A stretch of DNA of 46,454 nucleotides from assembly GCA_902607945.1 (NCBI GenBank), contig CACLMD010000004.1:1-46454 (forward strand), in the 5' to 3' direction. The notes beneath the pieces were generated by a model. It was not told the DNA's origin and searched no databases. It saw only the letters and a list, made by a program, of their open reading frames with translations. Below, one piece after another: positions 19,281 through 41,478 of the stretch (position 1 is its first letter; each line of letters begins with the position of its first letter). This stretch comes from an uncultured Pelagibacteraceae bacterium (GTDB lineage Bacteria; Pseudomonadota; Alphaproteobacteria; Pelagibacterales; Pelagibacteraceae). Both the position numbers and the translations under genes were made by a program.

Positions 19281-20155
19281 TCAGAAACAATTTTTTTTCG
19301 CTTATTTAAAAGTGAATAAAACTGAAGTAATACAGCAAAAAGTATAATTGCACCTCCTATTAATCCAAACGTTGAAGGTCTTTCACTCACAAAAAGAAAT
19401 GCCCATATCGGACCAAGTACAGATTCGGAAAGCATAATTATTCCAACCGTAGCAGAAGGAGTTGTTCTTGCTCCGATTGTAATAAATATAAAACCAAATC
19501 CAACTTGAAAAAAACCGGCTAGAAAACCTAAAAAAATATCATGAGGGGATATCATTATTTTAGTTGAGAGCAAAAACCCAACTAAACATGAACATACCCC
19601 AGCTACAAATTGAGCTGGGACCATATCTACAGTCGGATATTTTCTTATTATTATAATTAAAATTGCAAAAACTATTGGCATTGAAAATGCTGCTAGGTTT
19701 CCAGATAACTCACCTGGTGTGAGTGAATTTCCAACCATCAATAAAACACCTATCATTGCTAAAATAATTGAAATTAAAGTTGAAGTGCTTATTTTTTCTT
19801 TTAAAAAAAAATACCCAAATACTGAAAGAAATAGTATTTGAAGTGAAATGATAAAATTAGTATTTGCAACTGTCGTATTATACATTGCAAAAACATAACC
19901 ACAGAAACCAATAGATAGTATGATTCCACCAAAAAATCCTGGTAAACCTGAAACGTAGAATGATTTCAAAGTTTTTCCTTTATAGCTAATAATTAAGAAA
20001 GCTAAAATAGTAAGAGAAAAAAATAAAGATCTCCAAAATAAAATTTGCCATAAAGTTGCACCCTCAAATGATTTAACAAGCAATCCACCAAAACTTAAAC
20101 TTAAAGCTCCTAAAAAGATTAATAATGGGCCAGGTAAGTTTCTTATAAAAGTCAT
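19277..20155 (-). CDS. EamA/DMT-family transporter
   Basis: A 292-residue inner-membrane carrier with ten predicted helices in two EamA repeats. Typical landmarks include LSFGGLLVKSFEGATLWQILFWR near the N-terminus and FLKEKIS and LSESVLGPIWAFLFVSERPS at repeat ends. The start codon overlaps the stop of pxpC by one base (TAATG), so it forms an operon with pxpB and pxpC. That placement suggests it moves 5-oxoproline, glutamate or a related compound; DMT carriers are usually exporters, so efflux is as likely as uptake. Substrate unproven. Confidence 0.86.
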   Translation of the reverse strand: MTFIRNLPGPLLIFLGALSLSFGGLLVKSFEGATLWQILFWRSLFFSLTILAFLIISYKGKTLKSFYVSGLPGFFGGIILSIGFCGYVFAMYNTTVANTNFIISLQILFLSVFGYFFLKEKISTSTLISIILAMIGVLLMVGNSLTPGELSGNLAAFSMPIVFAILIIIIRKYPTVDMVPAQFVAGVCSCLVGFLLSTKIMISPHDIFLGFLAGFFQVGFGFIFITIGARTTPSATVGIIMLSESVLGPIWAFLFVSERPSTFGLIGGAIILFAVLLQFYSLLNKRKKIVSD

Positions 20156-21108
20156 TATATTTGTGAAATTAGATTTTGAGTCTCTAAGTCATATAGTTTA
20201 AATAAAGTTTCTGCGCTAGATAATTCGACTTCTTGGAATTTAATTTTTGAACCAGGCATAAGTTGAACCAATTTGTCATAATCAGCACTAATAACTACAG
20301 CTATCTTTGGATAACCCCCTATTGTTCCATGGTCAGAAAGCATAATTATAGGATTACCATCAGCAGGAATTTGAATTACACCTTTCAATATTCCCTCGGA
20401 TTTAATGTTTGTATCAACAATATTTTCAATCTTTGGACCTTCTAATCTCATACCCATTCTGTCAGATAATTTTGAAACTATAAACTCCTTTTCAAAAAAT
20501 ATTTTTTTTCCTTTATCAGAAAAATAATCATAATTAGTACCCTTAATAACTCTTATCTTTTCAATTTTTGAATTAAGATAATTAAGTTTTTTTTTTGAAA
20601 AATCTTTGCTTATTTTTTTAATTTGAATTTCCTGACCATTTACAATTTTTTTTCCATCGTTAGATCCAATTTTAGCTTTTGTATTTATAGAACAACTTTT
20701 CCATTGAAATTCTAGATCAATCTCTGCACCAATTGCAAGATAACCATAAACAGATTTATTAGTTGATAAAAGATCTATTTCATCTTCATCCTCTAATAAA
20801 TAAGTTTCATAACAATTTCCTTCAAATACTTTATGATTTTTTTTTAATCTAAACTTTACATTTCCGGTTATAGCTATATTTATTTTATCTCCATGATACT
20901 TAAGTAAAGGTCCTTGATAGGCAAATTCTATAACAGGGGAATTTAAATCGTTTTTTACCAATTTATTGGATAATAAATAATTTCTATTATCCATTGCACC
21001 GCTAAAAGGTATTCCAATGTGATATAAATTTTCTCTTCCTAAGTCTTGAAAAGTAGTATTTATACCTGCTCTAATTATTTTAAAATAATTTTTACTCATT
21101 GTATTCAT
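20155..21108 (-). CDS. pxpC: 5-oxoprolinase subunit C
   Basis: A protein of about 317 residues of the PxpC/KipA (biotin-dependent carboxyltransferase-like) family. With PxpA and PxpB it opens 5-oxo-L-proline to glutamate at the cost of ATP. Family motifs visible are IIRAGINTTFQDLGRENLYHIGIPFSGAMD, SDRMGMRLEGP, GVIQIPADGNPIIMLSDHGTIGGYP, written here as separate conserved blocks. The ATG at 21108 is preferred; ATG 21099 is also possible, and an upstream TTG at 21120 would lengthen the overlap with pxpB. It overlaps the pxpB end by several bases. Confidence 0.92.
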   Translation of the reverse strand: MNTMSKNYFKIIRAGINTTFQDLGRENLYHIGIPFSGAMDNRNYLLSNKLVKNDLNSPVIEFAYQGPLLKYHGDKINIAITGNVKFRLKKNHKVFEGNCYETYLLEDEDEIDLLSTNKSVYGYLAIGAEIDLEFQWKSCSINTKAKIGSNDGKKIVNGQEIQIKKISKDFSKKKLNYLNSKIEKIRVIKGTNYDYFSDKGKKIFFEKEFIVSKLSDRMGMRLEGPKIENIVDTNIKSEGILKGVIQIPADGNPIIMLSDHGTIGGYPKIAVVISADYDKLVQLMPGSKIKFQEVELSSAETLFKLYDLETQNLISQI

Positions 21109-21766
21109 TATATTGATCAATATTTATTTTTTTAAAAACTACTGTGTCTCCAGGATTTATTAAATTTGGTTTTTTTTCTTTTTTACTATTAAAAATTCTA
21201 AGGGGTGAATTACCAATAATGTTCCAGCCTCCTGGACTTTCAAAAGTATAAATATTTGCAAATTGTTCTGTTAACCCAACTGATCCCTTTGGAACTTTTA
21301 CCCTAGGTGTTTCCAATCTTTTTGCTCTCATCTTATCATCAAGGTCACCAAGAAAAGGCATACCAGCTATAAACCCTGTCATGTAACAAAAGTATTCTTT
21401 AGCAAAAAAATTATCAAAAATTTTATCTCGGTTTAAATTTAGTTTTTTTTCTAATCTTTTTATATCTAAAGAAAGTGTTTCATCACAACAAACTGGTATT
21501 TCTATTTTATTTGATGATAAATTTTCTTTTTGATCGATTGTAATATTTTCAATAATTTTTTTAATGTTCTTATAATTTGTTCTTTTTAAATCGTAGGATA
21601 TAATTAGTTTATTATAAGATGGTGTTAGGTTATTAATTCCATCAATCTTTTTAAGTTTTAAAGTTTTAAAATACCTAATAACTAAAGAATTAACTTCTTT
21701 ATTAACTTCATTACCAAAATCACAATATAAAGCTGCGTCACCAAGATTTGATATATTTTTTAACAT
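21092..21766 (-). CDS. pxpB: 5-oxoprolinase subunit B
   Basis: A 224-residue PxpB/KipI-family protein, the partner of PxpC. The conserved C-terminal block is clear: FIAGMPFLGDLDD, RLETPRVKVPKGSVGL and FESPGGWNIIGNSP. The N-terminal GDAALYCDFGN is also typical. The gene is divergent from pxpA, with only 21 bases between the pxpB start and the preferred pxpA start, so both promoters must overlap the coding ends. It heads the pxpB-pxpC-DMT operon. In other bacteria pxpA, pxpB and pxpC lie in the same direction, so this divergent arrangement is less usual. Confidence 0.92.
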   Translation of the reverse strand: MLKNISNLGDAALYCDFGNEVNKEVNSLVIRYFKTLKLKKIDGINNLTPSYNKLIISYDLKRTNYKNIKKIIENITIDQKENLSSNKIEIPVCCDETLSLDIKRLEKKLNLNRDKIFDNFFAKEYFCYMTGFIAGMPFLGDLDDKMRAKRLETPRVKVPKGSVGLTEQFANIYTFESPGGWNIIGNSPLRIFNSKKEKKPNLINPGDTVVFKKINIDQYNEYNE

Positions 21767-21787
21767 GCCATGTTATACTTACAATTT

Positions 21788-22570
21788 ATGACTATTGAAA
21801 TTAATATAAATTGTGATTTAGGTGAAAAATCTAAACATCATTCTAATAAGTATGATCCTGATTTACTTGAAATAGTAAATTCAGCAAATGTTGCTTGTGG
21901 TTTTCATGCTGGAGATGATGAATCTATGAGTCAGGTAGTTCAAATATCAAAAAAAAATAATGTTAGTATCGGTGCTCATCCCTCTTTTAATGATCCAGAA
22001 AATTTTGGAAGAAAAAGGATGAATCTTTCTTCGGGTGAAATTAGAAGATTAATAATTGATCAATATGAAATTCTACAAAAAATCGCAAGCAAACATGGAG
22101 AAGTGGTCACTCATATTAAACCGCATGGTGCCTTAAATAATATGGCCTGTGAAGATATTGAATTGGCTACTACTTTGGCAAAAACTATTAATGAGATAGG
22201 TAAAGATTTAATCTATCTAGTGCCAACTGGTTCAAAAATGGAGAAGGCTGCAAAAAAACTGAATATTAAAATAGCATGTGAAATTTTTGCAGACAGAAAC
22301 TATGAAGATGATGGAAATTTAGTTTCTAGAAAAAAAAGTCACGCATTAATAATTAATCCTGAACAAGCGAAAAAACACGTATTAAGCATGGTCAAAAATC
22401 AGGCTATCAATTGTCACAGTGGTAAGCAAATACCTTGCGAAATAGACTCGGTATGCATACATGGAGATAATAAAAGCTCTTTGGCAACTGCAAAGTCAAT
22501 AAAGGATAATTTGCATGATAATGGCCTTAAATTATTAGCTTTAAACAAAATGGAGAAATTTAAAAAATGA
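21788..22570 (+). CDS. pxpA: 5-oxoprolinase subunit A (LamB/YcsF family)
   Basis: A protein of 260 residues that supplies the ATP-dependent lactam-opening component of 5-oxoprolinase. The N-terminal ININCDLGE, the metal-site SANVACGFHAGDDESM, SIGAHPSFNDPENFGR, THIKPHGALNN and EIFADRNYEDDGNLVSR motifs are all standard. I choose ATG 21788, because the conserved core begins immediately after it; an upstream ATG at 21770 would add six residues. It overlaps the next gene by four bases (ATGA), so a TPR protein is translationally coupled to it. Confidence 0.95.
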   Translation: MTIEININCDLGEKSKHHSNKYDPDLLEIVNSANVACGFHAGDDESMSQVVQISKKNNVSIGAHPSFNDPENFGRKRMNLSSGEIRRLIIDQYEILQKIASKHGEVVTHIKPHGALNNMACEDIELATTLAKTINEIGKDLIYLVPTGSKMEKAAKKLNIKIACEIFADRNYEDDGNLVSRKKSHALIINPEQAKKHVLSMVKNQAINCHSGKQIPCEIDSVCIHGDNKSSLATAKSIKDNLHDNGLKLLALNKMEKFKK

Positions 22571-23064
22571 TTAAAAGTTTTATTGTAACATCAATTATTT
22601 ACATGTTTTTAGTAACAACTAGTTTTTCAGCTGGTTCAAGTTCATCTGGTGGAGATGGAGGATCAATGAAATCTAATTATGAAAAAGCTGTGTCGCATAT
22701 TAAAAGTGCTAAAAAACTTGAAAAAAAAGGAAAATTAAAAAAAGCAAATCAAAAATATGCAAAAGCACAAAAACTCCTTTTAAAATCTAACAAAAAAGAT
22801 CCAAGTAAACCAGATACATTAAATTATCTTGGTTTTACTACTAGAAAATTAGGAGATTTTGAAAATGGTGAAAAATATTACTTACAGGGTCTAGCTATAA
22901 ATCCAACTCATATTGGAATTAATGAATATCTTGGAGAATTATATGTGGCTACTGGTAGACATAATCTAGCAATAGAAAGACTTGAAGTATTAAAAAGTTG
23001 TAATTGTAAAGAATATGAAGAGTTAAAAGCTATAATAGCTGGCGAAAAAGTTTCTAAATACTAA
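22567..23064 (+). CDS. Exported TPR-repeat protein
   Basis: A 165-residue protein with a hydrophobic signal peptide ending FSA at about residue 22, then a Gly/Ser-rich linker (GSSSSGGDGG) and tetratricopeptide repeats. The latter are seen in YEKAVSHIKSAKKLEKKGKLKKA, NYLGFTTRKLGDFENGEKYYLQGLAINP and YLGELYVATGRHNLAIERLE. TPRs bind other proteins. A CNCKEYEEL segment near the end holds two Cys. It is coupled to pxpA by a 4-base overlap and its stop overlaps the convergent dctM stop. Periplasmic location is inferred from the signal peptide; the partner is unknown. Confidence 0.82.
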   Translation: MIKSFIVTSIIYMFLVTTSFSAGSSSSGGDGGSMKSNYEKAVSHIKSAKKLEKKGKLKKANQKYAKAQKLLLKSNKKDPSKPDTLNYLGFTTRKLGDFENGEKYYLQGLAINPTHIGINEYLGELYVATGRHNLAIERLEVLKSCNCKEYEELKAIIAGEKVSKY

Positions 23065-24371
23065 TTTAAATTTTGAACCATTTGTTCTGGTAACCATAAG
23101 GCAATTTCTGGAAAAATCACAACAAGTATTACCGCTAACACCATTAGTAAAAATAATGGAAATGCACTTTTTGCAATATAGCCCATATCCTTGTTTGCCA
23201 TTCCTTGGAGGACAAATAAATTAAAACCTACGGGAGGTGTTATTTGGGCCATCTCTACTACAATAACTAAAAATATACCAAACCAGATCATATCAAAACC
23301 AGCTTGTCTGATCATAGGTTCAATTATTGCCATTGTTAATACAACTGCAGATATTCCATCAAGAAACATTCCTAGAATTATGTAAAAAATCATTAAAACT
23401 AAAATTAAAACATAAGGAGAAAGATCCATATTTTGTATCCATATTGCCAAATTTCTTGGCAATCCTGTAAACCCCATCGCTAAAGATAAAAAAGTAGAGC
23501 CAGCTAGTATAAATGCAATCATACAAGAGGTTTTGGTTGCACCTAGTAAAGATGATTTAAATGTTTCTAGGGTTAAACTTTTTTGGAAGTAAGATAAAAT
23601 TAAAGCTCCAATAACACCTAATGAGGCTGCTTCGGTGGCAGTTGCTATTCCAGTGTATATAGAGCCTATAACAGCAGAAATTAACAATATTACAGGTAAA
23701 AGTTGCCTTGATCTTTTTATTTTTTCTAAAAAAGAATATTCCTCAATAATTTTTGGCATTTCTTTTTTATTGATTAATGACCAAATAATTACATAGGACA
23801 TAAAAATTAACGCAATCATTATACCTGGAATAATTCCAGCAATGAATAATTTAGCTATAGACTCTTGAACAGCGACTCCATAGATAATTAAAATAATTGA
23901 TGGAGGTATTAGTAAACCTAAGGTTCCTGAACCAGCTAAACTTCCAAGTAATATTTTTTCTGGATAGTTTCTTTTTCTCAATTCAGGAATAGACATCTTA
24001 CCAACTGTTGCTACAGTTGCAGCTGATGAACCAGATATAGCAGCAAACAATGCACATCCTACAACATTTACGTGAATTAAGCCTCCAGGTAATTTTTGCA
24101 TCCAAGGAGATAAGCCTTTAAAAAGATTTTCTGAGAGTTTAGTTCTAAATAATATTTCACCCATCCAAACAAATAAAGGTAAGGCTGTTAAAGTCCATGA
24201 TGATGATGTTCCCCATATAGTAGTCGCCATTGCGTCACCTACTGGTCTAGAAGTAAATAAAATCATCCCAATAGCAGATACTCCAATCATGCTCAATGCA
24301 ACCCAAATTCCAGAGCCTAAAAAAAATAGCAAAACAGTAATAAAAAAAATTGTTAAAAAAATCTCAGCCAT
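23061..24371 (-). CDS. dctM: TRAP transporter large permease
   Basis: A 436-residue DctM-family protein with about twelve hydrophobic helices, the ion-coupled membrane component of a TRAP importer. Recognisable segments are LPLFVWMGEILFRT, GCALFAAISGSSAATVATVG, GSLAGSGTLGLLIPPSIILIIYGV, IGALILSYF and the C-terminal QITPPVGFNLFVLQG. Its start is two bases from the dctQ stop. The stop overlaps that of the convergent TPR gene. Together with dctQ and dctP it makes a complete Na+-driven uptake system. The location beside pxp genes hints at 5-oxoproline or a related acid as substrate. Confidence 0.95.
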   Translation of the reverse strand: MAEIFLTIFFITVLLFFLGSGIWVALSMIGVSAIGMILFTSRPVGDAMATTIWGTSSSWTLTALPLFVWMGEILFRTKLSENLFKGLSPWMQKLPGGLIHVNVVGCALFAAISGSSAATVATVGKMSIPELRKRNYPEKILLGSLAGSGTLGLLIPPSIILIIYGVAVQESIAKLFIAGIIPGIMIALIFMSYVIIWSLINKKEMPKIIEEYSFLEKIKRSRQLLPVILLISAVIGSIYTGIATATEAASLGVIGALILSYFQKSLTLETFKSSLLGATKTSCMIAFILAGSTFLSLAMGFTGLPRNLAIWIQNMDLSPYVLILVLMIFYIILGMFLDGISAVVLTMAIIEPMIRQAGFDMIWFGIFLVIVVEMAQITPPVGFNLFVLQGMANKDMGYIAKSAFPLFLLMVLAVILVVIFPEIALWLPEQMVQNLN

Positions 24372-24854
24372 TTAATTTTTTTTTATATTTAAAATAAATT
24401 GATGAAAAACACTTATAAAAAATATCGTTGATCCAATCGCTACACTGGTTTGTGGTATCCATATTAAAATTTCATCTGCGCCTTCGCTTCTTTCTTGAAA
24501 TTTATAAGATATTATAAGCATTTTAATAAAATAGAATGCTAAGTATCCTGAAAAAAAACTAGCTATACTTAAGCACCATATTTCTATTAACCATCTTTTA
24601 TTGCCTGAAAACTTTTCTAAAAAAAGGGTGATCCTTATATGACCACCTTCAACAAAAGTATATGCTAGAGCGAAAAAAGACGCTGCTGCCATACAGTATC
24701 CAGAGTATTCTGCTAATCCTCTGATATAAAAACCAAATATTCTAGATGAAATACCTATAAGAATAAATACTGCAACTAATATTAAAAAGGTTGCAGCTAT
24801 GTAACCTGAAAATTTGTAAAGCTTATTTAAATTTTTATCTAAAAATCTTAACAT
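24372..24854 (-). CDS. dctQ: TRAP transporter small permease
   Basis: A DctQ-family protein of about 160 residues with four hydrophobic helices, the small membrane partner of DctM. The features NKLYKFSGYIAATFLI, the GGHIRITLFLEKFSG loop and the final IGSTIFFISVFHQF helix are typical. I use ATG 24854. An in-frame GTG at 24869 falls inside a strong hairpin and looks less likely. There is no clear Shine-Dalgarno before the ATG, because the stem ends five bases upstream of it, so dctQ translation may be weak relative to dctP. Confidence 0.88.
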   Translation of the reverse strand: MLRFLDKNLNKLYKFSGYIAATFLILVAVFILIGISSRIFGFYIRGLAEYSGYCMAAASFFALAYTFVEGGHIRITLFLEKFSGNKRWLIEIWCLSIASFFSGYLAFYFIKMLIISYKFQERSEGADEILIWIPQTSVAIGSTIFFISVFHQFILNIKKN

Positions 24855-24859
24855 AAATA

Positions 24860-24892
24860 TTAAGGCCACTTGTATTAGTTAAGTGGCCTTAA
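24860..24892 (-). promoter_or_regulatory. Intercistronic hairpin between dctP and dctQ
   Basis: A perfect 12-base inverted repeat (24860-24871 with 24881-24892, arms TTAAGGCCACTT and AAGTGGCCTTAA) with a nine-base loop lies just after dctP and just before dctQ. No T-run follows on the minus strand. It is probably an mRNA-stabilising or attenuating stem that lets dctP be made in excess, rather than a full terminator. Confidence 0.7.
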
Positions 24893-24907
24893 GATAAAAA
24901 AATTAAA

Positions 24908-25879
24908 TTATTTGTAAGCTGATAAGACAGCATCTCCTCTTGAGCCGGCCTTTTGAGACCATTCTTTAGCCATTGTCTCTCCAACTTTTTCAAAATGAGA
25001 TTGTAAAGAAGAATTAACTTTACCAACTACCATACCGGCATCTGCTAAAGCTTTTTTGTCTCCAACATTTCCTTGTTTTGATAATTGCCAGCCTTTTCTT
25101 TCAGCTAAAGCTGCCTGTTTCATTACTAAATCCTGAGTTGCTTTATCTAGTTTATTCCAAGCATCTTTGTTAACAATCACCATATTTTTTGGAAACCAAG
25201 CTGCTATGTCGTAAAAGTATTTTACACCATTCTCCCAAATCTTAGAATTTTTTCCAGTTGTAGGGGAAGTGATCATGCTTTCAACTGCACCAGTAGAAAA
25301 AGCCTGGCTTATTTCAGCAGCTTCAATTTTTGTCGGCGCCATTCCTGTCAACTCTGCTATCCTTATTGTTGCTGAGTTATATGCTCTAAATTTCAAACCT
25401 TTGAGATCATTAACAGAGTTAATTTCTTTTTTACTATATAAGCCTTGAGCTGGCCAAGGAACAGCATATAAAAAAACTAATCCTTTAGCGTCCAAGCCTT
25501 TTGCTATCTCATCTTTTGATGCTTTATATAATTTCATAGCATCTGAGTAAGATGTTGCTAAAAAAGGTTGAGAGTCCACTTCTAAAAGTGGATCTTCTTT
25601 TCCTAAAGCTGACATAAATCTCTCACCAATCTGAGCTTGGCCAGTTCTAACAGCTCTAAAAATTTCTCCTCCCTTAAATAGGGATCCACCAGGGTGAGTA
25701 ACAATAGTCAACTTCCCCCCACTTTTTTCAGTTACATTTTTTGCAAATTCAGTCGCATTTGCAGAATGAAAATTACCAGCACCATAAGCTAGCGCCATGT
25801 CCCATTTTTCTGCTATTGCAAAATTTATTGACAAAATTAACGAAACTAAAACAGTTAATAAATATTTCATGAATTTCAT
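24908..25879 (-). CDS. dctP: TRAP transporter substrate-binding protein
   Basis: A 323-residue periplasmic binding protein of the DctP family. A signal peptide (MKFMKYLLTVL onward, ending AIA) is followed by AYGAGNFHSANATEFA, FKGGEIFRAVRTGQAQIG and LKGLKFRAYNSATIRIAELTGMAPT. The latter block carries the conserved Arg that salt-bridges a carboxylate ligand in most family members. A strong GGAGGA site lies just before the ATG. It is the first gene of the dctP-dctQ-dctM operon, with a hairpin behind it. Ligand unknown; related Bordetella proteins bind pyroglutamate, and pxp genes lie next door here. Confidence 0.95.
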   Translation of the reverse strand: MKFMKYLLTVLVSLILSINFAIAEKWDMALAYGAGNFHSANATEFAKNVTEKSGGKLTIVTHPGGSLFKGGEIFRAVRTGQAQIGERFMSALGKEDPLLEVDSQPFLATSYSDAMKLYKASKDEIAKGLDAKGLVFLYAVPWPAQGLYSKKEINSVNDLKGLKFRAYNSATIRIAELTGMAPTKIEAAEISQAFSTGAVESMITSPTTGKNSKIWENGVKYFYDIAAWFPKNMVIVNKDAWNKLDKATQDLVMKQAALAERKGWQLSKQGNVGDKKALADAGMVVGKVNSSLQSHFEKVGETMAKEWSQKAGSRGDAVLSAYK

Positions 25880-27481: not shown

Positions 27482-27510
27482 TTGAAATATTTAATTAATC
27501 ATAATTAAAT
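27482..27510 (+). promoter_or_regulatory. Probable promoter for a Liv-type binding-protein gene
   Basis: TTGAAA (27482-27487) and TTAAAT (27505-27510) are separated by 17 bases, about 40 bases upstream of the binding-protein start. An AAGGA ribosome-binding site precedes the ATG at 27549. Confidence 0.4.
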
Positions 27511-27548
27511 TGGTTTTTTATAAATTGTTAACAATAAAAAGGAAAATA

Positions 27549-28739
27549 ATGAAAAAAATATTTATTGCTGCTTTTATGTTTGTCTCAACTTTTACATCAA
27601 ACATATTCGCAGATGGACACTCAATTAAAATGGGAATAATTTTGGGATTTACCGGTCCTATTGAGTCTTTAACTCCTGCAATGGCTGCATCAGCAGAGCT
27701 TGCTTTTAAAGAAGCATCAGACTCTGGTTCGCTATTAGGTGGAAAAAAAATTAAAGTAGTAAGAGCAGACTCAACTTGTGTTGACTCAGCAGCAGCAACT
27801 GCAGCAGCTGAGGGTGTTATTTCGCAAGGTGTAGCTGCTATAATGGGTGCTGACTGTTCTGGAGTAACTGGAGCAATAGCATCAAACGTTGCTGTACCAA
27901 ATGGTGTAGTAATGATTTCACCATCAGCTACATCACCAGGATTAACAACTCTTGATGATAAAGGGTATTTTTTTAGAACCGCTCCGTCTGATGCAAGAGG
28001 TGGTCAAATTTTAGCTGATATTACAAAAGATAGAAAAGTTAAAAGTGTTGCAATAACTTACACAAATAATGATTATGGTAAAGGTCTAGCAGATGTTTAT
28101 GAAGCAGCTGTAAAAGCGCATGGTATTAAAGTAACAGCTGTAACTGCTCATGAAGATGGTAAAGCAGACTACTCTTCTGAAGTTGCAACTCTTGCATCAG
28201 CAGGTGGTGATGCTGTAGCTGTTATAGGATATCTTGACCAAGGTGGTAAAGGAATTATCCAGGCTTCTTTGGACTCTGGAGCTTTTGATAAGTTTATTTT
28301 ATCTGATGGTATGATAGGTCAATCTTTAGTTGATGCATTTGGTAAAGATTTGAAAAAATCTTTTGGTTCAATGCCTGGATCAACTGGAAAAGGAGCAGGT
28401 GTATTTGCTAATGTAGCAAAAGCTGCTGGTATTGACTCTTCAGGTCCTTATACAAGTGAGTCTTATGATGCTGCTGCTTTAATTGTTTTAGCAATGCAAG
28501 CAGGTGGATCAGCTGATAGAGCATCAATTGCAAAAAATGTAATGGATGTTGCTAACGGTCCTGGAACAAAAATTTACCCAGGTGAACTTAAAAAAGGTTT
28601 AGATTTATTAGCTAAAGGTAAAAAAGTTGACTACGAAGGTGCAACTGGAGTAACTTTTACTGACGTCGGTGAAGCTGAAGGTTCTTTCTTAGAACAAGAA
28701 ATTAAAGGCGGAAAGTTTAAAACTAAAAAACAAAGATAA
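27549..28739 (+). CDS. ABC transporter substrate-binding protein, Liv type
   Basis: A 396-residue type I periplasmic binding protein. A signal peptide (MKKIFIAAFMFVST, cleaved after IFA) precedes HSIKMGIILGFTGPIESLTP, and later segments such as ADCSGVTGAIASNVAVPNGV and YTNNDYGKGLADVYE follow the branched-chain amino-acid binding family. I set the start at 27549, since this ATG has an AAGGA site and opens the signal peptide; an in-frame start at 27510 would add 13 residues. No permease gene lies on this strand. Its likely partners are livG-livF-livH-livM on the opposite strand at 30022-33896. Ligand not determined. Confidence 0.93.
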   Translation: MKKIFIAAFMFVSTFTSNIFADGHSIKMGIILGFTGPIESLTPAMAASAELAFKEASDSGSLLGGKKIKVVRADSTCVDSAAATAAAEGVISQGVAAIMGADCSGVTGAIASNVAVPNGVVMISPSATSPGLTTLDDKGYFFRTAPSDARGGQILADITKDRKVKSVAITYTNNDYGKGLADVYEAAVKAHGIKVTAVTAHEDGKADYSSEVATLASAGGDAVAVIGYLDQGGKGIIQASLDSGAFDKFILSDGMIGQSLVDAFGKDLKKSFGSMPGSTGKGAGVFANVAKAAGIDSSGPYTSESYDAAALIVLAMQAGGSADRASIAKNVMDVANGPGTKIYPGELKKGLDLLAKGKKVDYEGATGVTFTDVGEAEGSFLEQEIKGGKFKTKKQR

Positions 28740-28755
28740 TTAATATCTTATTCAA

Positions 28756-28790
28756 AAAACCCCGGTAATTAAATTTACTGGGGTTTTTTT
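28756..28790. terminator. Bidirectional terminator between binding-protein and MFS genes
   Basis: The arms CCCCGGTAA and TTACTGGGG (one G-U pair) form a GC-rich hairpin, with A and T runs on both sides. It ends the plus-strand binding-protein transcript and overlaps the stop codon of the convergent MFS gene, so it can also end the minus-strand operon. Confidence 0.8.
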
Positions 28791-29944
28791 TGTTTAAAAT
28801 CTGCTCTTAAAGTTGAAATAATAATAATTACTAAAAATATTATACAAACTAAATTCATTGTTTTCCAACTAGTTAAATTAATAAATACTCCAGCAGATAA
28901 GCTTGCTGTTGCTTGAACTGTATAAACAATAAGGTCATTAAAACCTTGTGCCTTAAATTTTTCTTCTTCTCTATAAGATAAAACTAATAAACTAGTTCCT
29001 GATATAAATAAAAAATTCCAACCTAATCCCAAGAAAATTAGAGCAACTAAATAATTAAAGAAAGTTTGTTCAAAAAAACTTAATAAAATTGTTATTAAAA
29101 ATAACATAACTCCTGCGTACATAATCTTACTATGACCAAATTTTTTGATTAAGTTTCCAGTGATTAAAGATGGTAAGAACATAGATGCAATATGTAATTG
29201 AATTACAAAACCTGTTTTAGATAAACTCATTTTTTCCATTACATGCATACTAATTGGTGTAGCAGTCATCAAAAATGTCATCACTGCATAAGCAAATGCT
29301 GAAGCAATTAAAGCTTGTAAAAACCTAGGTTGTGAAATTAGCTCAAAATAACTTCTGCTACTTTTTTTTATAAAATTATTTTTTTTATGACCATCTTCAT
29401 AAAATAATAAAAAAATAGTTGATGTAAGTGTTAAAACTGCAAGGGCTATATATGAACCTGCATATAAATGCTGGGAAATAATTTCTTTAGAAACATTAGC
29501 TAAATTTGGCCCTATAAATGCAGAACCTATTCCCGCTAATAATATTATTGATATTGCTTTTGGGGCCATTTCTTTATCGACTGTTTCAACTGCAGCAAAT
29601 CTATATTGGTGACTAAAAGCTACTCCTGCTCCAATTAAGAAACATCCTAAATTGAATAATGTAAAACTCTCTATAATTATTGAGTAAGCTGCTATTAAAG
29701 ATGCAACTGAAGTTCCGACCGATGCAAAAATAAATCCTGATCTACGTCCTATTATACTCATTACTTTTGCTGCGAACATTGCAAAAATTGCAATTCCTAC
29801 TATTGATAATGCCATTGGTAATGTTGATAAAGATTTTATAGGACTAAGTTGAGAACCAATAATTCCACTCAAGAATACTGTGACGGGTGCAGCCGTAAAT
29901 GCGAAAATCTGACTTAAAATTAGTAGCCAAAGATTTTTATTCAT
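28775..29944 (-). CDS. MFS transporter
   Basis: A 389-residue major facilitator with twelve hydrophobic helices. The loop between helices 2 and 3 has AAKVMSIIGRRSGF, a version of the MFS signature, and the central loop is short and basic (EDGHKKNNFIKKS). It is the last gene of the minus-strand P5C-reductase-like/liv operon. Its ATG overlaps the stop of an upstream 22-codon ORF (TAATG), which suggests coupled translation. The substrate is unknown; the context hints at exchange or export of the compound imported by the ABC system. Confidence 0.88.
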   Translation of the reverse strand: MNKNLWLLILSQIFAFTAAPVTVFLSGIIGSQLSPIKSLSTLPMALSIVGIAIFAMFAAKVMSIIGRRSGFIFASVGTSVASLIAAYSIIIESFTLFNLGCFLIGAGVAFSHQYRFAAVETVDKEMAPKAISIILLAGIGSAFIGPNLANVSKEIISQHLYAGSYIALAVLTLTSTIFLLFYEDGHKKNNFIKKSSRSYFELISQPRFLQALIASAFAYAVMTFLMTATPISMHVMEKMSLSKTGFVIQLHIASMFLPSLITGNLIKKFGHSKIMYAGVMLFLITILLSFFEQTFFNYLVALIFLGLGWNFLFISGTSLLVLSYREEEKFKAQGFNDLIVYTVQATASLSAGVFINLTSWKTMNLVCIIFLVIIIISTLRADFKQKKPQ

Positions 29945-30012
29945 TAAAACATATACTTATCAGCCATATACATGGCCCAAGCTATTGCGGCACCTAATAT
30001 AATATATTTCAT
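29944..30012 (-). CDS. Candidate 22-residue membrane peptide
   Basis: A 22-codon ORF encodes MKYIILGAAIAWAMYMADKY followed by Met-Phe. It is a single hydrophobic segment with a short polar end, of the right length to span a membrane once. It begins nine bases after the livM stop and ends in a TAATG overlap with the MFS start, an arrangement expected of a translated gene rather than spacer. It lacks a clear Shine-Dalgarno site and I recognise no family. It could be a small accessory subunit or only a coupling leader peptide. Confidence 0.5.
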   Translation of the reverse strand: MKYIILGAAIAWAMYMADKYMF

Positions 30013-30021
30013 ATAGGATAA

Positions 30022-31392
30022 TTATTTTATTTCTATTTTTTCTGGAAGTATACCTTTAGGTCTATATCTCATAATCAATAATAAACCCACTCCCATCATT
30101 AAAAACCTAAAATAAGGTACACTTTCAATTAAATGGATCTTTAAGAAGTGACTATCTTCCAAACCTGCGGTTGTAAGATTAACCAAATATAGTCCTATTG
30201 GTGCTGCTTCAATCCATAAAAACCAAACTACAAAACCTCCTAAAATTGCACCAAAATTATTTCCACTTCCACCAACAATAACCATTACCCAGATCAAAAA
30301 AGTATATCTCATTGGTCTATAGCTGCCTGGAGTAAATAATCCATCTTGAGTGACTAACATCGCTCCAGCTATTCCAACTATTGCTGATCCTAAAACAAAA
30401 ATTAATAAGTGTTGTTTGACTACATTTTTACCCATAGCATTTGCTGCCTCCTCATTATCTCTAATAGCCCTCATCATTCTTCCCCAAGGAGAGTAAAGAG
30501 CTTTTTGAGTTAAAATCAAAAGAATAATCACAACTACTAAAAATAATCCTGAGTAACAAAGTTTTACAAAAACTGATGAACCTTCAATCACAAATTGGTT
30601 AAGAGCAGCTTGTCTTTCAATTAGATCTGAAATTAAATTTAATTTTCCAGAATTAAATTTTTCAACTAGATTTATAAACCAATCAGTTTGTTGTAAATTA
30701 ACCTCATAAGGTGCGGGACGTTTCAATCCAATTACATTTTTTACACCTCGTGTTAACCAGTCTTCATGTTTAATTATAGCAATCACAATTTCAGAGATTA
30801 ACAAGGTTGCTATAGCTAAATAATCGGCTCTTAAGCCTAAGGCTACTTTTCCAATAACAAATGCTAATCCACCTGCAAATAAAGCTCCCACAATCCAAGA
30901 AAAAATAATTGGAAGACCTAATCCTCCTAAGAAACCAGTTTTTGCTGGATTTACTTCTTCAATTGCCTCTATACCAGGCTCAGAAATAAATCGAATAATA
31001 ATAATTCCTAAAATGATTATTGTAGCAATAATATAATTTCTTAATTTCGATTTTTTATATTTCATTAAAACGAATCGAACAGCTAGTACCATTCCTATAA
31101 CAAGGAATAGACTAAATAAAATATTAAAACCTCCAGCACTCCAAGCTTCTTGAACTGGATTAACAGAAATTAAAACTGCTGCTAGACCACCTAGGGCTGT
31201 GTAGCCCATTATTCCAAAGTTAATTAAACCAGCATAACCCCATTGAATATTAGCACCCATCGTCATTACAGCTGAGATCAAACAAAGATTAAATATTGAT
31301 AGTGCAATATTCCAAGATTGAAATATTCCTACAAGGATAATCAACCCTATCATTATACTATAAGCAGCAATTACATTAAAATTTTTTCTCAC
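30022..31392 (-). CDS. livM: Branched-chain-type ABC permease, LivM
   Basis: A 456-residue inner-membrane permease of the LivM family, longer than the common 330-residue form. Extra sequence between the conserved AIATLLISEIVIAIIKHE block and the second half includes a soluble insert (about residues 217-275) with a TDWFINLVEKF stretch. The EAA-like loop is seen in RAIRDNEEAANAMGKNV. About ten helices are predicted. It overlaps livH by four bases. With livH, livF and livG it forms a full importer whose binding protein is likely the plus-strand gene ending at 28739. Confidence 0.94.
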   Translation of the reverse strand: MRKNFNVIAAYSIMIGLIILVGIFQSWNIALSIFNLCLISAVMTMGANIQWGYAGLINFGIMGYTALGGLAAVLISVNPVQEAWSAGGFNILFSLFLVIGMVLAVRFVLMKYKKSKLRNYIIATIIILGIIIIRFISEPGIEAIEEVNPAKTGFLGGLGLPIIFSWIVGALFAGGLAFVIGKVALGLRADYLAIATLLISEIVIAIIKHEDWLTRGVKNVIGLKRPAPYEVNLQQTDWFINLVEKFNSGKLNLISDLIERQAALNQFVIEGSSVFVKLCYSGLFLVVVIILLILTQKALYSPWGRMMRAIRDNEEAANAMGKNVVKQHLLIFVLGSAIVGIAGAMLVTQDGLFTPGSYRPMRYTFLIWVMVIVGGSGNNFGAILGGFVVWFLWIEAAPIGLYLVNLTTAGLEDSHFLKIHLIESVPYFRFLMMGVGLLLIMRYRPKGILPEKIEIK

Positions 31393-32399
31393 AACACTTT
31401 TCCCTTAAATATTCCAGATGGTCTATATAATAATACAATTACTAATATCGAAAAAGACACTGCAAATTTATAATCAGTTGAAAGCAACTGAACCAAACTA
31501 TCTGGCTCCATACTTGTTGGTAAAACATAAATAAAAAATTTCTTATAGGCGTATGTTAAAAGTATTTCTGAAAAGGCAATTACATATCCGCCTAAAAATG
31601 CCCCAAACGGATTACCAATACCTCCAACAATTGCTGCAGCAAATATAGGAAGCATATTATTAAAGTAAGTGAATGGCTTGAAACTTTTATCTAAACCATA
31701 TAAAGCACCACCAACTGTTGCTAAAATTCCTGCAATTATCCAAGTAATCATGACAATTTTTTTAGGATCAATTCCTGAAAGAAGTGCTAGATCTTCATTG
31801 TCAGAATAAGCCTTCATACTTTTTCCTGTCTTAGTTTTATTTAAAAACCAAAATAAAATTGAAACTAATACAATAGTTGCAAATATGGTTAACACTTGTG
31901 TTGATTTAATTGCTAAACCTTCATTGAGACCTGTCATTTCTTTAAATTCACGAGCTTTGATTATAAATTTTTCTCCGTCAAAAAATCTTCTATCAGAAGG
32001 GCCAATGATAATTCTAACAACAGCTTGAGTAACAAACATCACTCCAATACTAACCATAGCAAGTTGTACAGGTGGACTTTTATTTACTCTATAATATTTA
32101 AAAACAAATTTATCAATAAAGAGCATATAAAAAATCATAAATATAATTGCAAATGGAATAGCTAATAAAGCCGTTGGTAATATTCCAAGTGAAACACCAA
32201 TAGATTGAAAATACCAGGTAATCAAAATGGTTATCATCGTTCCAAAAGACATCATGTCTCCAGTTGCAAAGTTAGCAAACCTTAAAATTCCATAAATTAA
32301 AGTAACAAAAATTGCACCTAGCGCTAACTGAGAACCATAAGTTAAGGCTGGTATAAAAATATAATTCAATAAAAGTATTATAGCGTTTAAAAAATCCAA
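31389..32399 (-). CDS. livH: Branched-chain-type ABC permease, LivH
   Basis: A 336-residue LivH-family permease with about eight helices. Family segments include the N-terminal LTYGSQLALGAIFVTLIYGILRFANFATGDMMSFG block, the EAA-like loop MKAYSDNEDLALLSGIDPKK and AAIVGGIGNPFGAFLGGY. It overlaps livM by four bases and begins one base after livF ends. It pairs with LivM to form the membrane channel of the importer. The domain between helices 3 and 5 (FDGEKFIIKAREFKEM) is longer than in E. coli LivH. Confidence 0.94.
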   Translation of the reverse strand: MDFLNAIILLLNYIFIPALTYGSQLALGAIFVTLIYGILRFANFATGDMMSFGTMITILITWYFQSIGVSLGILPTALLAIPFAIIFMIFYMLFIDKFVFKYYRVNKSPPVQLAMVSIGVMFVTQAVVRIIIGPSDRRFFDGEKFIIKAREFKEMTGLNEGLAIKSTQVLTIFATIVLVSILFWFLNKTKTGKSMKAYSDNEDLALLSGIDPKKIVMITWIIAGILATVGGALYGLDKSFKPFTYFNNMLPIFAAAIVGGIGNPFGAFLGGYVIAFSEILLTYAYKKFFIYVLPTSMEPDSLVQLLSTDYKFAVSFSILVIVLLYRPSGIFKGKVL

Positions 32400-32400
32400 G

Positions 32401-33108
32401 TTATCCTCCTAAAAAAGAGCTTCTGACTCTTGGGTCGTTTAATAATTGACTACCAGATCCGGTATATCTGTTTTCTCCGGTAACTAAAACATAACCTCTA
32501 TCAGAGATACTTAATGCTTGTTTTGCATTTTGTTCCACCATTAAAATTGCTACATTAGTTTGTTTTACTTTTACTATGTGATCAAATAATTCATCCATTA
32601 CAATAGGAGAAACCCCAGCAGTAGGCTCATCTAACATTAAGACTGATGGTTTAATCATTAAAGCTCGGCCAAGAGCTACTTGTTGTCTTTGACCACCAGA
32701 TAGTTCTCCAACTAATTGATTTCTTTTTTCTTCTAGAATTGGAAATAAATTATAAATTTCATCAATTGTATCTTTATAATCGTTGTTAATCAAAAAAGCT
32801 CCCATTTCTAAATTTTCCTCTACTGTCATGCCTGCAAATACATTTTTTGTTTGTGGGACAAACGAAATACCTTCTTTAACTCTCTCTTGAGGTGAAAGTT
32901 TAGAAATATTTTTACCATTAATTATTACTGATCCAGATTTTAGATTTAATAATCCTAACATTGCTTTCATTGCTGTTGATTTACCAGCTCCATTTGGTCC
33001 TAGAATAGAAACAATCTCACCTCGATCGACATTTACTGAACATGAATTAATGATATCTGGACCGTTTCCATATCCACCAGTCATATTATTACCTTCAAAA
33101 AAAGCCAT
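32401..33108 (-). CDS. livF: ABC transporter ATP-binding protein, LivF
   Basis: A 235-residue cytoplasmic ATPase of the LivF type. The Walker A motif GPNGAGKST, signature LSGGQRQQVALGRAL, Walker B VLMLDEPTAG and switch His region in VEQNAKQAL are all intact. It energises the LivH-LivM channel together with LivG. Two bases separate it from the livG stop side and one from livH, consistent with one transcript. The C-terminus ends with the SFLGG typical of LivF. Confidence 0.95.
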   Translation of the reverse strand: MAFFEGNNMTGGYGNGPDIINSCSVNVDRGEIVSILGPNGAGKSTAMKAMLGLLNLKSGSVIINGKNISKLSPQERVKEGISFVPQTKNVFAGMTVEENLEMGAFLINNDYKDTIDEIYNLFPILEEKRNQLVGELSGGQRQQVALGRALMIKPSVLMLDEPTAGVSPIVMDELFDHIVKVKQTNVAILMVEQNAKQALSISDRGYVLVTGENRYTGSGSQLLNDPRVRSSFLGG

Positions 33109-33110
33109 TA

Positions 33111-33896
33111 TTAATTTTTCTTTAACTTTGAACCTCTCCCTAAATAACTTTCTATAACTTTTTCATCATTTTTAGCATCTTCTACAGAACCCTCAAATAA
33201 CACTGAACCTTCAGCCATTACTATTACTGGATCACATAATCTACCTATAAAATCCATATCATGCTCAATCATGCAAAAAGTATATCCTTTTTCTTTGTTT
33301 AATTTTTCAATAGCTGTTCCAAGATCTTTCAATAATGTTCTGTTAACTCCTGCACCCACTTCGTCTAATAACACTAATTTAGCATCAACCATCATGGTTC
33401 TTCCAAGTTCAAGTAATTTTTTTTGGCCACCAGAAAGATTTCCAGCTAGTTCATTTGAAAGATGTCCTAGATTTAGAAAATTTACTACTTCTTTTGCTTT
33501 GTTTTTAATTGACTCTTCCTCTTTTGCTACTAAGGAAGGTTTAAGAAAAGTATTCATTAACTTTTCACCAGATTGATTACCCGGAACCATCATTAAATTT
33601 TCTAAAACAGATAAATTAGTAAATTCATGTGCTATTTGGAAAGTTCTAAGCAATCCTTTTGAAAATAATTCATAAGATGGGACATTAGTAATATCTTCAT
33701 TGTTAAATAAAACATTTCCAGCAGATGATTTTAAATTTCCTGCTATTAAATTAAATAATGTAGTTTTACCTGAACCATTTGGTCCAATAATTCCAGTAAT
33801 AGTTCCCTTTTTAACTTTAATTGAACAATCTGAAACAGCAGCTAACCCACCAAAATATTTAGATAAATTACTTATTTCTAAAATATTTTCTGACAT
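33111..33896 (-). CDS. livG: ABC transporter ATP-binding protein, LivG
   Basis: A 261-residue ATPase of the LivG type. Motifs seen are Walker A GPNGSGKTT, the LivG-typical LLRTFQIAHEF, signature LSGGQKKLLELGRTM and Walker B LVLLDEVGAG, where Val replaces the usual Pro after the catalytic Glu. The switch region reads MIEHDMDFI. It starts three bases after the P5C-reductase-like gene, so that gene is probably the first of the operon. The partner ATPase is LivF. Confidence 0.94.
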   Translation of the reverse strand: MSENILEISNLSKYFGGLAAVSDCSIKVKKGTITGIIGPNGSGKTTLFNLIAGNLKSSAGNVLFNNEDITNVPSYELFSKGLLRTFQIAHEFTNLSVLENLMMVPGNQSGEKLMNTFLKPSLVAKEEESIKNKAKEVVNFLNLGHLSNELAGNLSGGQKKLLELGRTMMVDAKLVLLDEVGAGVNRTLLKDLGTAIEKLNKEKGYTFCMIEHDMDFIGRLCDPVIVMAEGSVLFEGSVEDAKNDEKVIESYLGRGSKLKKN

Positions 33897-36907: not shown

Positions 36908-37601
36908 TATACTCTCCGACTAAATAGGCTATAGTTCCACCAATTACACCTGCTAACAGAATTGACCACTCAGGTGAAAATAAATAGATAATTGGTCCTA
37001 ATATTATTCCAAGTAAGACAGATAAAGTAACTTGTACAGTTTTTGATGCTCCAATTAACATACATAAAAAATAAACTGGATTAAGAATTGCTAATCCAAT
37101 CATCATGTCTTTATTCATGTATTCTGAAAAATAGAAACCTATAAATGTTCCAACAACAGAAACACTTAATGTTGCACTTCCAATTCCAATCCAATAATCA
37201 ATCCTATATTCTTTTGGAATTTTCTTGTAATTACTTTTCATTATTAACCACGCGGAAACAGCAATAAAATGACAAGAAAAGTAATACTTCCACTTAGGTT
37301 GAGATTTGTGCATCATTAACGGAAACAAAGATACAGCCATAGGATAAAGCCGTGCATTAACTATCCAAACTGCTAGAAAAATATTAAGTAGAGATGCTCC
37401 AATTAACATGGACTCAGCCATTACTAGTGAACCGGGCAATGCATAAGTTAAGACAGTTGAAAAAATACTTTCTTGAATATTAAAACCTAAATTTTTAAAA
37501 AGAGCTCCAATCGCCACAAAGCAACAAGTAAGGGCTATTGCTGGACTGTCATAAGTAAATATAGATCTATAACCTTTTAAGAAAAAACTTTTATTTACCA
37601 T
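36897..37601 (-). CDS. azlC: AzlC-family amino-acid exporter
   Basis: A 234-residue protein with six to eight helices and AzlC-family features, such as FNIQESIFSTVLTYALPGSLVMAESML, FLAVWIVNARLYPMAVSLFP and the GIGSATLSVSVVGTFIG helix. It forms the exporter with AzlD. The start codon overlaps the stop of the livF-like gene by one base, so it is coupled to the ABC operon. Substrate is by homology; other amino acids are possible. Confidence 0.85.
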   Translation of the reverse strand: MVNKSFFLKGYRSIFTYDSPAIALTCCFVAIGALFKNLGFNIQESIFSTVLTYALPGSLVMAESMLIGASLLNIFLAVWIVNARLYPMAVSLFPLMMHKSQPKWKYYFSCHFIAVSAWLIMKSNYKKIPKEYRIDYWIGIGSATLSVSVVGTFIGFYFSEYMNKDMMIGLAILNPVYFLCMLIGASKTVQVTLSVLLGIILGPIIYLFSPEWSILLAGVIGGTIAYLVGEYNVS

Positions 37602-38386
37602 TATCCACCCAGGAATAATCTACCTACATCTGGGTTTTCTAATAAATCATCTCCTTTTCCAGCTATAGCAGTTTGACCTGAAACTAAAACATAACCAATA
37701 TCAGCAAACTCAAGACCTTTTTTAGCATTTTGCTCAACAAGGATAATTGTTTTTTTTTCGTTTTGTTGAAGATCTCTTAAAATTTCAAATACCATATCTA
37801 TATATCTGGGCTCAAGACCAATTGATGGTTCATCAACTAGTAAAACTGATGGCTTCATAACTAATGCTCTAGAAATTTCTAATAATCTTCTTTCACCTCC
37901 AGATAAAACTTTTGCTGGTTGATTTCTTCTATTTCCTAGTCTTTCATATTTTTGAAGAATTTTTTCAGCCTCTGCGTAAGACTCTTCTGTTTTATCTTTA
38001 ATAAATCCTCCCATTAATAAATTTTCTTCTACTGTCATGTCTGGAAATACAGAATTATCCTGAAGTATATAAGCTATTCCAACTGATTTAAGTTTTTCAG
38101 CTGGAGAAAGATTGGTTATTTCTTTTCCATCAATTTCAATTTTTCCAGAAAAGATATTTGTAAACCCATAAATTGAATGAAGTATTGTTGATTTACCTGC
38201 ACCATTGGGACCTATCAAACATAATGATTGAGCTTTACTAACAAAAAGTTCAAAATTATGCAGTATCTCCATTTTACCATAACCAGCATTTAAATTTTTA
38301 ATAGTTAAGTGGACATCGTTAGGAGAAAGATTTTTTAAATCCTCAGCTATAGGTGCTTTACCTAAAACTTCATATTGATTAGACAT
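37601..38386 (-). CDS. livF: ABC transporter ATP-binding protein, LivF type
   Basis: A 261-residue ATPase with an extra N-terminal extension of about 25 residues (MSNQYEVLGKAPIAEDLKNL) before the core. Walker A GPNGAGKST, signature LSGGERRLLEISRAL and Walker B VLLVDEPSIG are intact, as is the VEQNAKKGL switch region and the LFLGG ending. Its start codon overlaps the livG-type stop by one base and its stop overlaps the azlC start by one base. It energises the second Liv-type importer in this window. Confidence 0.95.
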   Translation of the reverse strand: MSNQYEVLGKAPIAEDLKNLSPNDVHLTIKNLNAGYGKMEILHNFELFVSKAQSLCLIGPNGAGKSTILHSIYGFTNIFSGKIEIDGKEITNLSPAEKLKSVGIAYILQDNSVFPDMTVEENLLMGGFIKDKTEESYAEAEKILQKYERLGNRRNQPAKVLSGGERRLLEISRALVMKPSVLLVDEPSIGLEPRYIDMVFEILRDLQQNEKKTIILVEQNAKKGLEFADIGYVLVSGQTAIAGKGDDLLENPDVGRLFLGG

Positions 38387-39126
38387 TATTGAGCCCCCAA
38401 ATAAGCATCAACAACTCGCTTATCATTTTTAATTTCATCTGGTGAACCATTTGCGAGCATTTTTCCATGAGCTAAACAAAAAATATCCTCTGCTAGTTGC
38501 ATAATCACCTTCATATTATGTTCGATTACTAAAAGTGTTATGCCAAAATCTTGATTAACTTTAATTAATCTATCAATAATTCCATTGATTAAAGTTGGAT
38601 TAATTCCTGCAGTAGGCTCATCTAATAATAACATTTCAGGCTCATTCATTAATGCCATCGCAAGTTCTAATAATTTTTGCTGACCAAAAGATAAGTCACC
38701 TGCTCTTAATTTTCTTTTTTGGTATAAACCAACAAAATTCAATAAATTTTCAGCTTTTTCTGTCAAATCTTTTGGAATCTTATTAAATATTGTAAATAAA
38801 CTAGCGTCACTACCTTTGTGACTAATCAGCATGTTTTCTACACAATTCAACTTTCCATAAATTCTTGTTTGTTGAAAGGTTCTTAGCAGACCAAGTTTTG
38901 CAATCACTGGAACTGGTAATTCAGATACTTCTTTTCCATTAAACTTAATAGATCCATTATCTATTGGATAAGTACCTACGATAGAGTTAAATAAAGTAGT
39001 TTTACCCGAACCATTTGGTCCAATTAAACCAACAATTTTACCTTTCTCAACTTTCATTGATATATCAACATTGGCTTTAACCCCACCAAACGATTTACTT
39101 ACATTGCTAACTTCCAAAATACTCAT
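38386..39126 (-). CDS. livG: ABC transporter ATP-binding protein, LivG type
   Basis: A 246-residue ATPase with Walker A GPNGSGKTT, LLRTFQQTRIY, the LivG-style signature LSFGQQKLLELAMAL, Walker B LLLDEPTAG and the IEHNMKVI switch. It overlaps livM by four bases and livF by one. It is the second ATPase of the importer encoded from 41479-42717 downward. Sequence identity to the other livG in this window is moderate, so they are not a recent duplication. Confidence 0.94.
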   Translation of the reverse strand: MSILEVSNVSKSFGGVKANVDISMKVEKGKIVGLIGPNGSGKTTLFNSIVGTYPIDNGSIKFNGKEVSELPVPVIAKLGLLRTFQQTRIYGKLNCVENMLISHKGSDASLFTIFNKIPKDLTEKAENLLNFVGLYQKRKLRAGDLSFGQQKLLELAMALMNEPEMLLLDEPTAGINPTLINGIIDRLIKVNQDFGITLLVIEHNMKVIMQLAEDIFCLAHGKMLANGSPDEIKNDKRVVDAYLGAQ

Positions 39127-40172: not shown

Positions 40173-40525
40173 TTTTTCCCTTTAATTTTATAAACATATC
40201 CCCATCCAGTTGCGATATTATAAAAACAATATCCTGCCCAACCAATTAATAAATAAGGCCAAAACTTGATTGCTAATAAAATTATTCCACCACCTCGTCT
40301 AGCAGCTGCTCTTCCTTGTTGTTGACTTGAAGCTTGTGATAAAGGATCTTCCCAACCAGAAAGCAAATAAATACCAGCAATTAAATTGTATGCAGAGAAA
40401 ATAATTAATATTGTAACGCAAATCTTTAAAAACTCGAACTTTTCTTTATCCTGAAAATAAGCCATAGGCCAAATAATTACAAAACTACCAATAAATGATA
40501 TAGCTATAATTTTTGCTGTAATCAT
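40169..40525 (-). CDS. Unknown small membrane protein within a liv operon
   Basis: A 118-residue protein with about three hydrophobic segments: residues 4-24, 33-56 and 79-103. Between the second and third lies a polar, Gln/Arg/Gly-rich linker SQASSQQQGRAAARRGGG. I do not recognise a family. It starts two bases before the end-side of livH on the same strand and overlaps livM by four bases, so it is made with the two permeases. It may be an accessory subunit of the importer, or a spacer protein helping membrane insertion. It is too long and too well embedded to be spurious. Confidence 0.75.
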   Translation of the reverse strand: MITAKIIAISFIGSFVIIWPMAYFQDKEKFEFLKICVTILIIFSAYNLIAGIYLLSGWEDPLSQASSQQQGRAAARRGGGIILLAIKFWPYLLIGWAGYCFYNIATGWGYVYKIKGKK

Positions 40526-40526
40526 C

Positions 40527-41420: not shown

Positions 41421-41430
41421 AATTCGACCT

Positions 41431-41466
41431 TAAAAAAAAATACCCCCTAGAGTTTAGGGGGTATTT
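41431..41466 (-). terminator. Hairpin with T-run after the binding-protein gene
   Basis: A perfect 12-base inverted repeat (41438-41449 with 41455-41466) with a five-base loop lies 13 bases after the binding-protein stop. On the minus strand it is followed by a run of T (nine A on the plus strand). It is likely a partial terminator, since livH and the rest of the operon follow at once. Confidence 0.8.
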
Positions 41467-41478
41467 ATAGATTAGTTA

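Follow-up and report, generated by a model that had tools for sequence, protein, structure and literature searches.

Does the 22-codon open reading frame (ORF) between livM and a major facilitator superfamily (MFS) transporter gene of an uncultured Pelagibacteraceae bacterium encode a protein, and does that protein serve the transporter beside it? The Pelagibacteraceae (SAR11) are among the most abundant bacteria of the ocean, and their genomes rank with the smallest of free-living organisms; a 69-nt gene that selection has retained there is unlikely to be idle. The window, i.e., the whole 46,454-nt stretch of DNA that was analysed, belongs to a genome of 832 kb and 68% completeness (G000), in which the peptide has a single match. 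The original prediction had placed a 22-codon ORF at 29944-30012 in the livM/MFS gap, with its stop overlapping the MFS start as TAATG. This was confirmed, with the ORF on the minus strand: it runs from an ATG start over 22 codons to TAA, lies inside the 77 nt that separate the stop of livM from the MFS start, and encodes MKYIILGAAIAWAMYMADKYMF. Read in frame, the plus strand of the same interval contains an internal stop. The features of the locus are as follows.

27510..28739, plus strand: convergent gene for the periplasmic binding protein that belongs to the liv cluster (Pfam PF13458, E 4.2e-33)
28775..29944, minus strand: MFS transporter gene, a dispensable downstream neighbour (Pfam PF07690, E 9e-23), behind 32 of 90 livM-linked copies
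29942..29946, minus strand: TAATG stop/start overlap of the microprotein and MFS genes, 1 nt common to both; the same overlap in 32 of 32 livM-linked copies with an MFS gene behind
29944..30012, minus strand: putative membrane microprotein gene of 22 codons, product MKYIILGAAIAWAMYMADKYMF; profile match in 121 of 155 genomes of the order, codon-frame substitution pattern
30013..30021, minus strand: 9-nt spacer from the livM stop to the microprotein ATG; of 90 livM-linked copies measured, 89 have a distance between -4 and +9 nt
30022..31392, minus strand: livM, encoding a 456-aa ABC permease for branched-chain amino acids (Pfam PF02653, E 1.6e-29); found upstream of the microprotein in the majority of genomes of the window's genus
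31389..33896, minus strand: livH and two ABC ATPase genes, the rest of the livGFHM permease operon (assigned by Pfam); missing at the site in L118 and L119

Like livM, livH was assigned by PF02653; the letters livG and livF are given to the two ATPases by position only.

Coding status was assessed on 102 loci of the window's genus chosen by livM and not by the peptide, leaving out G492, with livM at a contig end, and G029, with a broken livM. An intact peptide lay nearby in 91 of these loci, a degenerate one in G500 and none in 10; for five of the 10, the genome carries the peptide elsewhere. Copies were recognised by YxxDKY and further members by similarity, so this choice itself accounts for part of the invariance of these columns. 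At the 10 livM loci without YxxDKY, another gene starts about 9 nt or less from the livM stop, and hence no diverged copy was passed over at these loci. The set of 90 measured copies omits the degenerate one (L130) and L117, which has no ATG at the core and whose ORF begins with TTG; the ATG start of all 90 is by construction, as the script sought ATG.

Substitutions at codon positions 1, 2 and 3 numbered 74, 30 and 179 over 45 independent pairs, with a pN/pS of 0.19; the corresponding value for the last 100 codons of livM was 0.11. Pooled over the 90 copies, the frame of the ORF gave a pN/pS of 0.31; the two other sense frames gave 0.87 and 1.40, and the three antisense frames 0.45, 1.34 and 1.59. 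The original prediction had named frame-disrupting changes in close relatives and lack of a conserved peptide as refuting; it passed both checks, with one exception among the 102 livM-anchored loci: in the G500 copy the central part of the peptide has another sequence, with charged residues in it, consistent with decay. Because the sequence is conserved and its substitutions track the codon frame, it is nearly certain that the ORF is a protein-coding gene under purifying selection. Gene callers usually apply a length floor of 90 nt; a 69-nt gene falls below it and is therefore probably missing from annotations. The peptide would rank among the shortest conserved bacterial proteins. At the locus that was left out for its broken livM (G029:C17:6752-8120), livM is interrupted by stops and a frame change, possibly an assembly error, and the peptide behind it (8128-8193) was matched without stops.

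The taxonomic range was examined by several searches. With the 22-residue query, tblastn at E <= 1 returned matches in 277 of the 399 genomes sampled for the genus and in 261 of the 397 sampled for the order. Some of these are weak or false, such as one inside a 304-aa ORF in G399, and they include five genus genomes with solely weak matches. A profile of 35 sequences (A1), which includes copies first picked up at weak E-values, was run on 155 genomes of the order at least 90% complete, the window's own (68%) being counted within this number. It gave strong matches in 121 of the 155 Pelagibacterales genomes (E <= 6.1e-8), the rest lying at E >= 0.012 or having no match. These comprised 98 of 115 genomes of the window's genus, 2 of 3 in genus g3, 5 of 5 in g4, 14 of 14 in g5 and 2 of 2 in g6; no strong match was obtained in g2 (0/2), g7 (0/1), g14 (0/1) or a second family (0/12). 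Four matches at E <= 0.005 were found in a class-wide sample of 387 alphaproteobacterial genomes, all within the same family, so that within this sample the peptide occurs only in Pelagibacteraceae. A degenerate DNA pattern searched against a named genome collection hit at least 119 stretches, and the 80 among those listed were all from Pelagibacteraceae or Pelagibacterales. The peptide is conserved far beyond chance, mostly with one match per genome. This distribution bears on the possibility that the product is the toxin of a type I toxin-antitoxin system (of the Ibs, Hok or TisB kind), which its small size and hydrophobicity would suit; conservation across genera, purifying selection and the single match in most genomes weaken that reading and make it highly improbable.

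The proposal that the peptide tunes the adjacent MFS transporter did not hold. An MFS gene stands behind 32 of the 90 livM-linked copies, always with the 1-nt TAATG overlap, a point in favour of the proposal; nevertheless, 58 copies have no MFS gene behind them, the MFS gene of G421 (L131) occurs in a genome that lacks the peptide, and the neighbours in the printed loci of other genera are unrelated. The gene thus does not accompany the MFS gene, and a role linked to it was rejected on gene content as scarcely credible. Most of the 58 copies are followed instead by a terminator-like hairpin, as judged by eye. These copies also bear on a leader peptide or coupling ORF, for which translation and not the product would matter: the ORF is very short, and in many copies its start or stop overlaps an adjacent gene, but the copies that run into the hairpin have no same-strand gene right behind to be regulated, and the amino-acid pattern is kept while the codons vary. 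The leader reading is likewise weakened, and we regard it as very unlikely.

Within the window's genus, the peptide is tied more closely to livM than to the MFS gene. In 89 of 90 copies its start falls between -4 and +9 nt relative to the end of livM, and 13 of these overlap livM; the exception, L116, has it at +374, after a thioredoxin-like gene, as it also is in L117. Among 115 genus genomes, 97 have livM and the peptide, 10 neither, seven livM alone and one the peptide alone. The seven include G492, where livM is at a contig end, G500, with the degenerate peptide, and five others; in the peptide-alone genome, G521, livM is cut by a contig end. A functional link to Liv and simple linkage would fit this co-occurrence equally well. 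If the peptide were a small subunit or modulator of the branched-chain amino acid importer LIV (livGFHM), made after LivM from one shared mRNA, this would account for the tight spacing. It would also account for the genus genomes at least 90% complete in which livM has no match: there are 11, of which 10 also lack the peptide, the eleventh being G521.

Several observations stand against an importer subunit. In G398 and G228 (L118 and L119), a ProC-like gene directly precedes an intact peptide and livGFHM is not at the site; the same ProC-like gene precedes livG in G408, G384 and the window. The best LivM matches left in these two genomes are only 29-32% identical, although the assemblies are 86% and 72% complete, so livM could lie elsewhere. 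The peptide is carried by four other genera, mostly without this livM: 22 of 23 peptide-bearing genomes have no livM at E <= 1e-60, and in the remaining one (G533) livM lies apart from the peptide. Conversely, no peptide follows livM in L356 (G533, g5), L357 (g14) or L358 (second family), and a profile search of L356-L359 found none. In five genomes of the window's genus, livM and the peptide are on separate contigs. Because two genomes keep the peptide without livGFHM at the site, other genera mostly lack livM and five genus copies lie elsewhere, LivM is not an obligate partner, close neighbour though it is. The natural absence of livGFHM and the relocation of the peptide weaken a Liv-specific role, which we consider unlikely.

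The identity of the relocated copies was controlled with a profile built from the livM-linked genus copies alone, which removes the circularity of A1. It recovered 23 of 23 given loci of four other genera, with per-genome E-values from 6.5e-10 to 1.2e-4 (two further loci, L366 in G496 and L370 in G427, were omitted from the run), and five relocated copies of the same genus at E <= 3.9e-11; the degenerate G500 copy scored 0.006, and nine livM loci that lack the peptide gave nothing at E < 1.

The genes beside these copies, whose names we assigned by eye and take to be approximate, change from lineage to lineage. In g6 the peptide follows an NlpC/P60-like gene in six of six genomes (loci printed with their neighbours), and in g5 it follows a MazG-like gene, beside a fumarase-like gene, in six of seven. 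In g3 it comes after an SDR gene (G406) or after other genes (G577, G636), while five genomes of the window's genus carry a relocated copy near a DUF4396-like gene. The peptide is often directly behind the stop of another gene across lineages; g4 differs, the peptide lying ahead of an AEC-type permease gene, with no close same-strand gene upstream, in two of two genomes. No neighbour family is common to all nine context groups compared. Some recur in two or three of the nine, for example a fumarase-like cluster in g5 and at two relocated loci; this cluster was discarded as a shared neighbour, a fumarase motif check being positive in the g5 loci only.

The DUF4396-like gene was sought in 25 genomes. 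It is present without the peptide in 13 (G413, G205, G009, G168, G221, G141, G467, G253, G670, G399, G404, G400 and G403) and missing from two with the peptide (G406 and G470), which rules it out as a partner; both are missing from G054, G063, G498, G317, G421 and G514, where loss and an assembly gap are indistinguishable. Since the neighbours differ between lineages, the peptide probably does a job of its own and does not tune an adjacent transporter, and operon context alone would give a wrong function.

The product had been described as a single membrane-length hydrophobic helix, and this was borne out in part. The composition is of membrane type and one helix is predicted for a relative; hydropathy is only moderate, the Kyte-Doolittle mean being 1.75 for residues 3-17 and, for the best stretch of 19 residues, 1.24 (two relatives reach 1.71 and 1.82), and by this measure the window peptide is short for a full membrane span. 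AlphaFold2 gave one helix over residues 2-34 (mean pLDDT 93) for the 35-aa relative from G636, in a single-sequence model of a kind of peptide, short and hydrophobic, that readily folds as a helix. The members of A1 are 22-35 aa long, within the size class of small single-helix membrane proteins (<=50 residues), and by size, hydropathy and the helix of the relative, the peptide is predicted to belong to this class.

The conserved pattern is G-x7-Y-x2-D-K-Y, followed, after one further residue, by F in almost every copy. G7 is invariant, position 11 is G or A, and Y15, D18, K19 and Y20 are invariant, the Y and DKY columns having been partly selected for; F22 occurs in 56 of 59 distinct cores, and the window peptide ends in the aromatic/charged tail DKYMF. 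Positions G7, 11, 15, 18 and 22 fall within an 80-degree helix arc. The conservation moment at 100 degrees over the whole pattern was not significant (permutation p 0.08 to 0.15), and conservation of a helix face was accordingly not used as evidence of an interface.

The small-residue motif, the invariant residues and the predicted single helix suggest an accessory helix for a membrane partner. We propose that the peptide is expressed along with whichever gene adjoins it and inserts into the membrane as one helix, which would pack on a membrane protein through its small-residue (G7, G/A11) and Y15/D18/F22 side, while the aromatic/charged tail would anchor it at the interface. It would then act as a small accessory subunit or stabiliser of this protein, which would not be the adjacent MFS protein and need not be LivM. 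The microprotein is probably such a small accessory subunit, with its membrane partner encoded elsewhere; for the fuller statement, an independent single-helix membrane microprotein that is specific to Pelagibacteraceae and accessory to such a partner, we estimate a probability of roughly 55%. The G7 and G/A11 pair also forms a GxxxG/A motif that could drive self-packing, and this, with the differing neighbours, would suit a stand-alone membrane peptide that has no fixed protein partner and, for instance, assembles with itself or acts on the lipid bilayer. Four invariant residues (Y, D, K and Y) in a peptide of only 22 would rather suggest specific contacts, and we hold a stand-alone peptide to be improbable. 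More tentatively than the accessory microprotein, and at somewhat less than even odds, we suggest that a core membrane complex has a subunit of 22 residues, confined to Pelagibacteraceae and undescribed before, whose gene may have moved between operons from lineage to lineage while G...Y..DKY.F stayed fixed.

The family collections searched gave no meaningful match. NCBIfam gave no match at E <= 10 for five members scanned; Pfam gave none for three of the five, including the window peptide, and two weakly matched unrelated families (E 0.22 and 0.25). With A1, two PDB matches at E 6.3-6.4 and a best PHROGs match at E 0.11, to one to three of the 35 members, were taken as chance. Nothing on this peptide was found in searches of open-licence PMC papers. 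As judged from sequence, this is a 22-aa peptide gene conserved across Pelagibacteraceae with no family match in the libraries searched.

Conserved small membrane proteins are a recognised class, as passages of PMC10903887, PMC4325964, PMC7267776 and PMC11364881 describe. Partner tests for three such systems covered 22 genomes, 14 with the peptide and 8 without. KdpF, a subunit of about 29 aa of the Kdp potassium pump, resembles the window peptide as a very short single-helix membrane protein; unlike KdpF, the peptide has no Pfam or NCBIfam match, and KdpA (PF03814) is absent from all 22 genomes, 14 of them peptide-bearing (control positive in 5 of 14 known genomes), so a KdpF-type role is out. 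CydX, which a passage of PMC4325964 gives as a 37-aa subunit of cytochrome bd oxidase, is likewise a short membrane protein conserved in a bacterial group; in contrast to CydX, the peptide matches no family, and a CydX-type role is out because subunit II of the oxidase (PF02322) was found in 0 of 22 genomes (control positive in 10 of 14 known genomes). AcrZ, according to part of PMC7267776, is a small partner of the AcrB pump. Like the peptide, it is a small membrane protein, and an RND pump (PF00873) is present in 22 of 22 genomes; unlike AcrZ, the peptide has no family match, and the pump occurs equally in the 8 peptide-lacking genomes, so its presence does not discriminate. The gene for AcrZ lies apart from that of its partner. 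In a single-contig g4 genome (G515:C1:270574-273599), the RND pump appears as two adjacent, slightly overlapping ORFs, either a split or a sequencing error.

Several further observations concern the surrounding transporter genes. The binding protein of the window's liv cluster is one that we take to be SAR11_1361. In the part of PMC5069961 that treats it, SAR11_1361 is named livJ2, of a Leu/Ile/Val-binding transport system. A second LIV-type cluster, by eye a binding protein, two permeases and two ATPases, lies at 37601-42717 on the minus strand of the window, about 4 kb upstream of the first, and L119 contains a cluster similar to it. The stretch from livM to the convergent binding protein gene is a swap zone, in which MFS, LysE-like and thioredoxin-like genes and a gene for a 253-aa membrane protein interchange among relatives (L130, L131, L132-L135, L141 and L116). 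At 20155-25879 of the window, a three-gene TRAP-type transporter adjoins genes that, by eye, we presume to be like those for 5-oxoprolinase subunits.
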